From Clostridia bacterium (lineage in GTDB: Bacteria > Bacillota_A > Clostridia > UBA1212 > UBA1255): DNA of 15,839 nt. The stretch is from positions 1 to 15,839 of the forward strand of contig JAFWZH010000318.1 in the NCBI GenBank assembly GCA_017522515.1. Reading direction: 5' to 3'. The notes beneath the pieces were generated by a model. The model did no database searches and was not told the origin of the DNA. It was given only the letters and a program-made list of their open reading frames with translations. Numbering within the stretch: position 1 is the stretch's first letter; every line of letters begins with the position of its first letter. A program made the position numbers and the translations under genes. Shown one piece after another: positions 124 to 15,732 of this stretch.

Positions 124-146
124 GATTTCATAAAGGAGTGACCGAG

Positions 147-731
147 ATGGATACCTACATAACAGGACAAACAATAAAGAATCTTCGCGAGAAAAAAGGC
201 TTCACTCAAGCAGAACTTGCTGAAAAATTGGGTGTAAGCAGCAAGGCGGTTTCAAAATGGGAAACAGCTAAAGGTTTACCTGACATTGCCTTAATTGAGC
301 CTCTTGCAAATGTGCTTTCTGTTTCGGTTATGGAATTGATGACAGGCAATGCAGTTGTTAACAAAAATATAGCCTCAAACATATTGCGTTCGAAATTCTA
401 TGTATGTCCTTTGTGCGGAAATATTATCCGAACCGTAGGTGATGCGGTTATAAGTTGCTGCGGAATTATATTGCCGCCACTTGAGGCTGAAGAAACTGAT
501 AATGAACACAATATAACCATTGAAATAGTGGAAGACGAGCATTTTATCACTATTAACCATAATATGACAAAGGAACATTATATTTCTTTCATTGCCCACA
601 TAACGTATGACAGAGTGCAGTTTGTAAAGTTTTATCCTGAGGGAAACGCCGAAACACGACTAAATTTACGAGGCGGCGGATGGTTGTATTTCTATTGTAA
701 CAAGCACGGACTGATGAAAACGAAAATCTAA
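147..731 (+). CDS. XRE-family HTH regulator fused to a desulfoferrodoxin (superoxide reductase-like) domain
   Basis: This is a 194-residue protein. Residues about 7-62 form a Cro/CI-type helix-turn-helix (the TQAELAEKLGVSSKAVSKWE stretch). Residues 87-105 carry CPLCGNI followed by CCG, the Cys-x2-Cys...Cys-Cys iron site of a desulforedoxin domain. Residues about 120-194 resemble the superoxide reductase domain. His121, His138 (NHNM), His144 (KEHYI), Cys184 and His187 (CNKHG) match the four-His one-Cys iron centre of that family. Desulfoferrodoxin normally reduces superoxide in the cytoplasm of anaerobes; attached to a DNA-binding domain it could instead sense superoxide or iron (inference). 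The ATG at 147 is preferred over the GTG at 138, because AAGGAG at 132-137 directly abuts the GTG but sits nine bases from the ATG. The gene is monocistronic by spacing, with its own promoter. Fold assignments rest on motifs only. Confidence 0.85.
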   Translation: MDTYITGQTIKNLREKKGFTQAELAEKLGVSSKAVSKWETAKGLPDIALIEPLANVLSVSVMELMTGNAVVNKNIASNILRSKFYVCPLCGNIIRTVGDAVISCCGIILPPLEAEETDNEHNITIEIVEDEHFITINHNMTKEHYISFIAHITYDRVQFVKFYPEGNAETRLNLRGGGWLYFYCNKHGLMKTKI

Positions 732-8379: not shown

Positions 8380-8622
8380 TTAAATAGAAGAATGAAATGT
8401 TCTTGAAATAATCTCGTCTTGCTGTTCTTTTGTAAGTTTAATAAAGTTTACAGCATAACCGCTGACACGCACTGTAAGCTGTGGGTATTTTTCGGGATGG
8501 GCTTGCGCATCCAATAATGTTTCTTTTGTAAAAACATTAACATTAAGATGATGGCCTCCTTTTTGACAATATCCGTCGAGAAGAGATACTAAATTATCTA
8601 TTTGATTTTCTGTTGCTGCCAT
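8380..8622 (-). CDS. grcA: Stand-alone glycyl-radical domain of pyruvate formate-lyase (GrcA-like subunit)
   Basis: This 80-residue protein corresponds to the C-terminal domain of normal PFL. It contains [18 protein letters not shown] and the radical motif RVSGYAV, with Gly55 as the expected radical site, and it ends SRTFHSSI like whole PFL enzymes. In E. coli a similar free protein (YfiD/GrcA) rescues oxygen-cleaved PFL. Here the main enzyme lacks this domain, so the small protein must supply it. The start at 8622 is preferred over an upstream in-frame ATG at 8688, because a perfect AGGAGG in the end of the large-subunit gene sits ten bases upstream and homology begins only after residue 8. 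One base separates the large subunit's TAA from this ATG, so translation is tightly coupled, favouring equal amounts. Confidence 0.92.
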
Positions 8623-8623
8623 T

Positions 8624-10753
8624 TTAATCGTCCTCCTGTGTATCAAGTCCTTCGAAAAGTGTTGGGGCGGAACATGCGCCTTCGCCACAACAGCATCCGT
8701 CTAATTCAAAATCAGCATCTATTTCGATATCTCCTGCAAAAATTTGGTCATCCTTGCCCAACGCACCCGGTATAATAGAGAAGGTATTGGAAATACCGTC
8801 TTGTGCGTCCTTAAAGGGGAGTTTAGAAACAGATGATAATGAAGCTATTGCGCCGTGTGTATCGCGTCTGTGCATTGGATTTGCACCGGGAGCAAAAGCT
8901 TCTCCTTGTTTACGTCCGTCCGGGGTTGAACCTGTATGCTTACCATAAACAACATTTGATGTAATCGTCAAAATGGATGTTGTGGGTATACTGTCTCTGT
9001 AAGTGTGGTTTTTCTTAATGTGTCCCATAAATACATGAACAATATCGTGTGCAATTTCATCAACACGATCATCATCGTTACCGTACTTCGGAAAGTCTCC
9101 CTCAACCTCATAGTCAACAGCAAGACCTTTGTCATTACGTATAACTTTTACTTTGGCGTACTTTATAGCGGAAAGGGAGTCTGCTACTACGGAAAGTCCC
9201 GCTATGCCTGTTGCAAACCAACGTGTAACGTGTTTGTCATGAAGGGCCATTTGGATTTTCTCATAACAATATTTGTCGTGCATATAGTGTATGATGTTAA
9301 GGGTGTTAACGTAGACATTTGCAAGCCACTTCATCATGGCATTGAACTTTTTAACAACCTCGTCATAATCAAGATACTCAGAAGTTATAGGTCTGTATTC
9401 AGGTCCGACTTGTTGACCTGAAATTTCATCCACACCGCCGTTAATTGCATACAGTAAGCATTTTGCCAAATTGGCACGGGCTCCGAAAAACTGCATTTCT
9501 TTACCGATTCTCATAGAAGAAACACAACAAGCGATTGCATAGTCATCACCGTGTGTAAATCTCATTAAATCATCATTTTCGTACTGAATAGATGATGTTT
9601 CAATAGAGATTTTTGCACAGAAGCGTTTGAAGTTTTCAGGTAATCTCGTAGACCACAAAACTGTCAAATTAGGCTCAGGTGCCGCACCGAGATTTTCTAA
9701 AGTATGAAGATAACGGTATGACATCTTTGTTACCATATGGCGACCATCTATTGCAACTCCGCCGATTGATTCGGTAACCCACTGGGGATCTCCGGAAAAA
9801 AGGGAATTATATTCAGGTGTTCTGGCAAACTTTACAAGACGTAATTTCATAATAAAATGGTCAACCATTTCTTGAAGCTCAGACTCTGTAAAAATACCAT
9901 TTTTTAGATCACGCTCTGCATATATATCAATAAAGGTTGATGTTCTTCCCAATGACATTGCAGCACCATTCTGCTCCTTTACAGCGGCAAGATAGCCAAA
10001 ATACAACCACTGTATTGCTTCTTTTGTATTGCGGGCAGGCTGTGAAATGTCAAAACCATAGCTAAGAGCCATCTTTTTTAATTCTTCTAAAGCACGAATT
10101 TGCTCGGATAGTTCTTCTCGGTCACGAATGACTTTTGAATACATGGCAGAACGTGTGGTTGCTTTTTGCTCTTTTTTGTCATCAATAAGCTTATCCACAC
10201 CATAAAGTGCAACTCTGCGGTAGTCTCCGATTATTCGTCCACGACCATAAGCGTCCGGAAGTCCCGTGATTATGTGACTTGAGCGACAAGCTCTCATTTC
10301 GTTGGTATATGCGTCAAAAACACCGGCGTTGTGAGTTTTCCTGTGTATAGTAAAAAATTCTTTTACGGAAGGATCAAGCTCGTATCCGTGGTCGCGACAA
10401 GCTTTTTCTGCCATACGAATACCGCCGTAGGGCATAAGAGCTCTTTTGAAAGGTTTGTCCGTTTGAAAACCAACAATCTGCTCTTTTTCTTTGTCAAGAT
10501 AGCCCGGACCGTGGGAAGTAATAGTAGAAATTACTTTAGTGTCCATATCAAGAACGCCGCCTGCTTTGATTTCTTTTTTAGAAAGTTCAAGTACTTGATT
10601 CCATAAGTCAACAGTTCTCTTTGTGGGACCTTCTAAAAAGGAAGCGTCTCCGTCGTAAGGTGTGTAGTTGTGTTTTATAAAGCTTCTGACATTTATTTCA
10701 TTAACCCATGTGCCGGGTCCGAATCCATTCCAAAATTCATGTAAATAATTCAT
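8624..10753 (-). CDS. pflB: Pyruvate formate-lyase large subunit lacking the glycyl-radical domain, with Cys-rich tail
   Basis: This 709-residue formate C-acetyltransferase converts pyruvate and CoA to acetyl-CoA and formate in the cytoplasm. Similarity to whole PFL is clear throughout, including the catalytic Cys409-Cys410 pair in AIACCVSSM, then [21 protein letters not shown] and [17 protein letters not shown]. It runs to [13 protein letters not shown], exactly where normal enzymes continue into the glycyl-radical domain. Instead there is a 40-residue acidic tail (about 670-709) holding CCCGEGAC (Cys687-689 and Cys694). The radical domain is the next gene, one base after the stop. AGGAGA stands before the ATG. 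Typical PFL is about 740-760 residues; large plus small subunit add to 789 because of the extra tail. The operon continues to pflA. This reads as an evolved split and not a sequencing error. Confidence 0.95.
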
Positions 10754-15333: not shown

Positions 15334-15732
15334 TTATTTTTTCAGTAATTTTTCTACGTCAGAGGTCTTCAATACCTTTCCAACGGAAACGACTTTTTCA
15401 TTGACAACAATAGCGGGCATACTCATCACACCGTATTCCATAACCTTCTCCATGTCGGTGATGTATTCCACTTCCACAGACAGCCTCAGATTGCGGACAG
15501 CTTCCTTGGCATATTCGTATTGATCGTGGCAGGACTTACAGCCTGCACCTAAAACCTTTATGCAGCAGATGCCATCGACAGGCTTTCCGCAGCAGCAGGA
15601 AGTGGTTTTCTCCGCATTAGGCGTGGAACCACAGCAACAGGTAGTTTCCTCAACCTTGGGTTCGCTACTGCCACAGCAGCAGGCAATAGCTTTCTTTTCT
15701 TCTTTCTTTTTGCCAAAGTTAAACAGTGCCAT
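15334..15732 (-). CDS. Thioredoxin-like protein with three N-terminal CCCG repeats
   Basis: This 132-residue protein has two parts. Residues 1-57 carry three CCCG clusters (Cys18-20, 32-34 and 46-48) at 14-residue spacing and then Cys56-57. The intervals between the clusters are Glu-, Ser- and Thr-rich. Residues about 57-132 are a small thioredoxin fold of the Thioredoxin_3 (MTH895-like) type, with Cys65-Lys-Ser-Cys68 as the redox pair and MSMPAIVV containing the cis-proline (Pro106). Such small thioredoxins are common beside ArsP-type permeases and arsenic genes, where they may reduce ArsC or handle metal thiols (inference). The repeats look like a thiol metal-binding or arsenite-trapping tail. 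No signal peptide is present, so it is cytoplasmic. GGAGGT precedes the ATG. The upstream partial gene also ends with CCCG. Confidence 0.85.
   Translation of the reverse strand: MALFNFGKKKEEKKAIACCCGSSEPKVEETTCCCGSTPNAEKTTSCCCGKPVDGICCIKVLGAGCKSCHDQYEYAKEAVRNLRLSVEVEYITDMEKVMEYGVMSMPAIVVNEKVVSVGKVLKTSDVEKLLKK

Follow-up and report, generated by a model that had tools for sequence, protein, structure and literature searches.

A pyruvate formate-lyase divided into a body and a separate glycyl-radical subunit, with a cysteine element carried either by the body tail or by a third small protein

Anaerobes draw acetyl-CoA and formate from pyruvate formate-lyase (PFL) as one of their central sources, and the glycyl-radical domain of PFL is the part of the enzyme that is destroyed by oxygen. 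In a 15,839-nucleotide stretch of DNA from a Clostridia bacterium (contig JAFWZH010000318.1 of assembly GCA_017522515.1; this whole stretch is hereafter called the window), the radical domain is not in the same chain as the PFL body, and is carried by the next open reading frame (ORF). The locus raises the question of whether this is a PFL made in two pieces by design or an ordinary PFL gene with a broken frame and, in the former case, how the pieces might work together.

ORF reading placed the stop codon (TAA) of the body at 8626-8624, followed by the single base 8623 and then by the ATG of the small ORF at 8622; the features of the locus are collected in Table 1. The first-pass annotation, made from the DNA alone, had described the radical domain as an 80-residue gene of its own, starting one base past the body stop and preceded by AGGAGG, and had placed the radical glycine at Gly55 (in RVSGYAV) and the Cys pair at Cys409/410; all of this was confirmed in the ORF coordinates. 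It had also stated that the body ends right after PGALGKDD, which was wrong, as the chain runs on for 40 more residues with a Cys motif that recurs in relatives. In a model search, the body exceeded the TIGR01255 cut-off for PflB-type PFL and covered positions 2-665 of the 744 in the model, while the 80-residue ORF covered positions 663-743; the two matches are complementary, and together the two ORFs thus make up one complete PFL. The adjacent catalytic Cys pair is present in the body, and both Cys were invariant across 47 alignment rows. The small ORF passed the curated cut-off of NF038360 ('autonomous glycyl radical cofactor GrcA3'). Against the GrcA/YfiD model, TIGR04365, it scored 91.2 bits where the cut-off is 170, matching only positions 66-125 of 126.

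Table 1. Features of the split PFL locus, in window coordinates
Feature	Position	Strand	Remark
pflB body (formate C-acetyltransferase without glycyl-radical domain), 709 residues	8624..10753	(-)	TIGR01255 1102.4 bits, cut-off 994.2
Cys409/Cys410 codons of pflB body, in IACCVSS	9529-9524	(-)	
C-terminal tail of body past ALGKDD, residues 670-709, acidic	8627..8746	(-)	fused PFL rows gapped here
Cys element in tail, residues 687-704	8642..8695	(-)	motif shared with C-terminal part of relatives' third small protein
AGGAGG ribosome-binding site for 80-residue ORF, within 3' end of body ORF	8632..8637	(-)	
grcA3, separate glycyl-radical subunit, 80 residues	8380..8622	(-)	NF038360 166.2 bits, cut-off 158
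Gly55 codon of GrcA3, in RVSGYAV	8460-8458	(-)	
pflA, radical S-adenosylmethionine PFL-activating enzyme, 251 residues	7598..8353	(-)	TIGR02493 307.7 bits, cut-off 231.75

A survey for the gene pair, as proposed in the first-pass annotation, documented that it recurs. A scan of contigs with the 80-residue protein gave at least 583 stretches encoding a relative, of which the best 80 loci were retained (loci and genomes are cited here by our L and G numbers). A radical-less body lies upstream of GrcA3 on the same strand in 78 of these, including three in which the body is truncated by the contig end (L004, L033, L075). As for the two exceptions, only 212 bases of contig precede GrcA3 in L018; L023 is a solitary additional copy, the linked pair of its genome being located elsewhere. 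The gaps between body and GrcA3 span -17 to 868 bases, and 53 of the 80 loci have a same-strand pflA downstream of GrcA3 at a distance of up to 1.5 kb (47 of the 69 in which the downstream sequence extends for 1.3 kb or more). Judged by record titles, split loci occur in Ruminococcus bicirculans 80/3, Lachnoclostridium phytofermentans, Lachnotalea glycerini, Lacrimispora amygdalina, Blautia sp. An81 and Beduini massiliensis. The pair was also found in two further, drawn genome samples, in which a stand-alone GrcA3 was defined as an open frame of at most 111 residues: 293 genomes from the class of G013 included 16 with such a frame, 14 of them over the cut-off, and 195 genomes from the phylum of G012 included 29, nine of them over the cut-off. 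For comparison, PflB was over the cut-off in 157 of the 293 genomes; in the phylum sample, 57 of the 195 had a PflB match at E <=1e-100, 54 of them over the cut-off.

An ordinary fused PFL could look much the same if sequencing or assembly had introduced a frameshift, and frame breaks do occur in these data: the body of L078 is broken mid-gene, and G371 and G354 (rows L246 and L247) each have two overlapping mid-gene ORFs in different frames. The latter two were considered as alternative split points and rejected, since they are fused PFLs with a frame break instead, probably sequence errors or pseudogenes, and they were excluded from the 29 genomes counted in the phylum sample. The break in the window, however, falls at the domain border, where a new ATG has its own ribosome-binding site, and 78 of the 80 loci share such a break; L139, from another genome, has the same one-base gap at 98% identity. 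Furthermore, the two genes are unlinked in two genomes, each on a single contig of about the genome's size: GrcA3 and body lie at 492 kb and 961 kb, ~469 kb apart, on a 1.37-Mb contig of G388, and at 443 kb and 342 kb, ~99 kb apart, on a 1.20-Mb contig of G335. A single polypeptide is thus impossible in these genomes, and the parts must meet in trans. On the recurrence and the unlinked genes, the frameshift artefact was rejected, and we assign it a negligible probability. The split of PFL in the window is real and not a matter of chance, and the view that two polypeptides are made by design, not through a frameshift, was upheld. As to gene arrangement in other genomes, the order is reversed in G411 and G450, where GrcA3 lies upstream of the body. 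The PFL genes of the G388/G335 lineage read TGA as Trp, and split PFLs of this kind were seen in small genomes (L172-L174, L177, L178, L180-L182, L250-L253).

A second alternative is that GrcA3 is merely a spare part beside another intact PFL, like GrcA/YfiD in Escherichia coli, and not the only radical source, as had been claimed. In 20 genomes of our own choice from the 80 loci, a search for other PflB found no full-length PflB over the cut-off beyond the split one in 18, although metagenome-assembled genomes (MAGs) may be incomplete. The split PFL was likewise the only one in the complete-sequence record of R. bicirculans 80/3 (G013), and in G111, the genome nearest to the window, whose locus has the same one-base gap, a body that is 98.0% identical over the compared stretch and a GrcA3 that is 98.75% identical. 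The other two of the 20, G005 and G014, do hold a full PflB, and the claim of a sole radical source thus stands for the majority of the genomes checked but fails for these two. The spare-part explanation can also draw on extra GrcA3 genes outside the pair, in G016 (C13:113197), G507 (C6; L023), G508 (C5) and G500 (C1; L188), which look like true spare parts for the split PFL itself. Against it, in addition to the 18 genomes, G111 and R. bicirculans, stands the fact that the partner body has no radical domain altogether. Overall, we find it very unlikely that a spare part is all that GrcA3 represents.

A two-chain PFL with GrcA3 as its radical source, i.e., a natural split enzyme, is highly probable in our judgment. 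In such an enzyme, the body, with its barrel and the Cys409-Cys410 pair, and GrcA3 would be translated back to back, and GrcA3 would dock at the place taken by the C-terminal domain in ordinary PFL. PflA would install the radical on Gly55 of GrcA3, the loop of which would then swing into the barrel and hand the radical to the Cys pair. With the radical on a small protein of its own, a copy cleaved by oxygen could be swapped for a fresh one, and the body would not have to be remade; by analogy with the work on E. coli YfiD, repair by such subunit exchange is plausible. The idea that the two chains share one active site agrees with the structural model of a split relative, L011, computed as a read-through chain of body, Cys tail and GrcA3. 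This model had a mean predicted local distance difference test score (pLDDT) of 85.5, and its superposition on E. coli PFL (2PFL) took in 743 of 759 residues at 1.5 Å, with 64% identity; this fit is expected because fused PFLs were in the alignment, and it therefore speaks for compatibility and is not proof. In fold searches with library entries to April 2026, PFL and other glycyl-radical enzymes were among the first 50 matches, which did not include the PDB entries 38la and 38lb discussed below.

The tail of the window body contains four Cys, and its Cys element has a counterpart in a third small protein; both the tail and this relation had escaped the first-pass annotation. In 41 of the 78 loci, a third ORF of 64-110 residues lies between body and GrcA3. 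The N-terminal half of its product shares homology with GrcA3 residues 3-34 (hhalign E 3.9e-8), whereas the C-terminal half is a Cys segment with the consensus STDC-x(n)-GAC-x2-PT; D15, H24, C56 and P59 are invariant across the 41 proteins. A hidden Markov model (HMM) made from the Cys part of the 41 separate proteins found the window tail with 27.5 bits (E 2e-7), while the best of 1580 shuffled tails, used as control, reached 8.8 bits. The third ORFs start with ATG or GTG in 40 of the 41 cases, and with TTG only in L040. Because some of them seemed to have no start codon after the body stop, a programmed frameshift fusing the body to the third protein was considered; it was rejected once starts overlapping the body stop had come to light. 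Searching proteins with the third-protein alignment retrieved at least 582 relatives at E <=1e-3, and among the 120 relatives listed, the named ones are hypothetical proteins. Five of the 41 third proteins, when scanned against Pfam and NCBIfam, gave weak matches only, the best being that of the N-terminal half to GrcA3 (E 4e-5), and the third-protein profile matched none of the solved-structure (PDB) sequences, with a best E of 0.4 to an unrelated growth factor.

The Cys element was found either in the tail or in the third protein. The third protein without tail Cys is present in 41 of the 78 loci, and a tail with at least two Cys but no third protein in 35; no locus has both, and two (L042, L072) have neither. 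The tails of the 78 loci either lack Cys or contain two or more; a single Cys does not occur. When all 79 tails, i.e., those of the 78 loci and the window, were searched, 22 scored above the best shuffled tail, namely 21 of the 34 labelled as Cys tails, plus L004, in which the Cys tail is present although not so labelled. Similarly, the 16 split genomes of the class sample comprise eight with the third protein, six with a Cys tail and two with neither (G240, G186); the third protein is placed after GrcA3 in G154, and in G196, which has the Cys tail, the body is broken further upstream. Outside the main set, the tail of G374 has the full motif. In the 293 genomes, the third-protein profile had some match in 73, and full-length matches in eight, all of them within the 16 split genomes (Fisher 1e-11, kinship ignored); the other matches cover the N-terminal half only, which is to be expected, since this half is akin to the radical domain. 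Bodies that end directly at the GK(D/E)D position exist in other lineages (L145/L190, L166-168, L175, L184-187). In L042, pflA lies between body and GrcA3 (L042:5136-5984) and has a long charged C-terminal extension, with no Cys element there.

The history of the two forms was viewed on a quick, unrooted tree of 112 bodies (LG+G4, with support from the SH-like approximate likelihood ratio test, SH-aLRT, only), which cannot separate gain from loss. It took in 39 of the 78 Cys-type bodies, and three rows that were near-duplicates or in doubt (L209, L225, L072) were omitted. The distinction between fused and split required three changes on this tree, and that between Cys tail and third protein eight; the starred branches force at least one change for fused/split, and five to six for each of the Cys-tail and third-protein labels. 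Split bodies free of the Cys element sit on other branches. On these counts, the split looks old, and the Cys element appears to have changed carrier several times between separate protein and body tail.

What the Cys element might do is suggested by a laboratory system. E. coli PFL lacking residues 696-759, when combined with YfiD, has wild-type activity once activated, but binds and is activated poorly (PMC8683613). A naturally split enzyme would have to solve this loading problem, for which the third protein or the Cys tail is a candidate. We offer, tentatively and at well under even confidence, the proposal that the Cys element acts as a placeholder or redox gate at the docking site of GrcA3 for as long as the radical subunit is absent or in the course of loading. 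The N-terminal half of the third protein would imitate the helix and strand by which the radical subunit docks, and the Cys element would, most simply, be delivered to the docking site either through this imitation module or by direct tethering to the body; a tethered tail needs no docking half, and the docking half is exactly the part that is missing from the tail. Taken further, the enzyme might be a three-part machine of body, radical subunit and a degenerate mimic in which a Cys loop replaces the radical loop. The mimic, or the tethered Cys part, would fill the empty docking site, cap the active site, and quench or sense the oxidised radical, such that swapping one small protein for the other would switch the enzyme; this fuller scheme is speculative, and we consider it rather doubtful. 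In a model of the L080 chain (body, third protein and GrcA3), the match to 2PFL extends to the C-terminus, and GrcA3 occupies the place of the radical domain. The third protein itself was poorly modelled, and its part was misplaced in 12 alignment rows that join third protein and GrcA3; thus, no docking claim is made for it.

The Cys element could instead serve PflA or GrcA3 purely as a docking or recognition signal, without taking part in redox chemistry, much as residues 696-733 have been suggested to provide for recognition of cleaved E. coli PFL by YfiD (PMC8683613). The homology of the third protein's N-terminal half to the first part of the radical subunit is in keeping with such a signal; however, the invariant residues beyond D15 and H24 of that half are one Cys and one Pro, which fit chemistry better, and split enzymes without the element exist. 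A pure docking signal is possible, although we would not expect it to be the answer.

The small subunit of 4-hydroxyphenylacetate decarboxylase is a small partner with a Cys-bound cluster, and the cluster-binding pattern of the HpdC and BssB/BssC small subunits is four Cys. The Cys element may likewise be a metal or iron-sulfur (Fe-S) site that tunes the Gly-Cys radical transfer, like the small Fe-S subunits of benzylsuccinate synthase (BSS). The latter are also small partners of a glycyl-radical enzyme and bind [4Fe-4S] clusters, and one of them, BSS-beta, promotes thiyl radical formation (PMC12590467). The Cys counts described above, including the four in the window, would suit a metal site. 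On the other hand, most Cys elements have two or three Cys at variable spacing, and no sequence link to the BSS or 4-hydroxyphenylacetate decarboxylase small subunits (HpdC, BssB/BssC) was found, either for the five third proteins in Pfam and NCBIfam or for the profile in PDB sequences. A metal site is, in our estimate, rather improbable.

Returning to the split enzyme with a placeholder or redox gate, several observations weigh against this reading. Thirteen of the 34 labelled Cys tails, short forms such as DCACCEP, did not score above shuffled tails, and their kinship with the third protein is thus argued from position and Cys content only. The tails of G411 and G485 have two Cys without the full motif, that of G450 has one, and L042 and L072 contain neither form. 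Fisher tests ignore kinship. Split PFLs lacking a Cys element (two of 16 in the class sample, short-tailed bodies, and most bodies with TGA as Trp) imply that the element is not needed for the split enzyme as such. A full PflB accompanies the split form in G005 and G014, two of the 20 genomes searched. Docking was partly built into the models through read-through chains and the fused PFLs in the alignment, and the regions of interest were of low confidence (pLDDT below 50 for tail residues 669-704 in L011, and ~26-64 for the third protein in L080). Lastly, the complex, its activity and the exchange are predictions.

Other observations concern the window at large. The body matches 134 of 72,556 plasmid records, the best being Subdoligranulum variabile OY725839 (81.5%), a record without annotation. 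At 15334-15732 (-), a Thioredoxin_3 protein is preceded by repeated CCCG motifs (CCCGSSEP, CCCGSTPN, CCCGKPVD), which form a Cys-rich N-terminus. At 138-731 (+), an HTH_3 regulator has a weak desulfoferrodoxin-like C-terminus, and its regulation may be linked to oxygen or superoxide.

Many gut bacteria make the oxygen-sensitive radical portion of this fermentation enzyme as a small protein of its own. The locus would be a natural counterpart of the laboratory system of truncated PFL plus YfiD, in which exchange repair and radical loading by PflA become directly testable, and the Cys element, alternating between separate protein and tail, suggests that a textbook enzyme has a control step not yet described. 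Among the literature matches listed, there was no paper on a split PFL, preprints and subscription papers being mostly outside the search, and earlier publication is possible; the name GrcA3 was not found in any paper in the literature searched, nor a formate phenotype of R. bicirculans in the passages available.

Among known systems, fused PflB (E. coli PFL, PDB 2PFL and 1H16; TIGR01255) has the same body, Cys pair, radical-domain sequence and activase, but here the radical domain is on a separate chain, and an acidic Cys tail replaces the direct link. GrcA/YfiD (TIGR04365, PDB 6OWR) is likewise a glycyl-radical domain in a separate protein that serves a radical-less PFL; unlike GrcA3, it has an N-terminal half of its own and repairs a fused PFL, whereas GrcA3 is apparently the only source in most genomes checked. 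The small ORF of the window is a member of NF038360, a model that spans the small protein only. The solved sequences closest to the window body are two entries named 'Formate acetyltransferase', 38la_A (687 residues; 1114 bits) and 38lb_A (739 residues; 1163 bits), both from other organisms. Neither was among the 34 matches of the radical subunit in PDB sequences; being radical-less, they indicate that such bodies have been studied elsewhere. The chain of 38la stops at the GKED position, and 38lb continues into a tail with ECDMCEM, although its alignment ends before the window's Cys, with the last 36 residues of 38lb outside the comparison. The small protein, as named by NCBIfam, and the radical-less bodies in PDB are therefore already known, while the third part, be it protein or tail, looks new.
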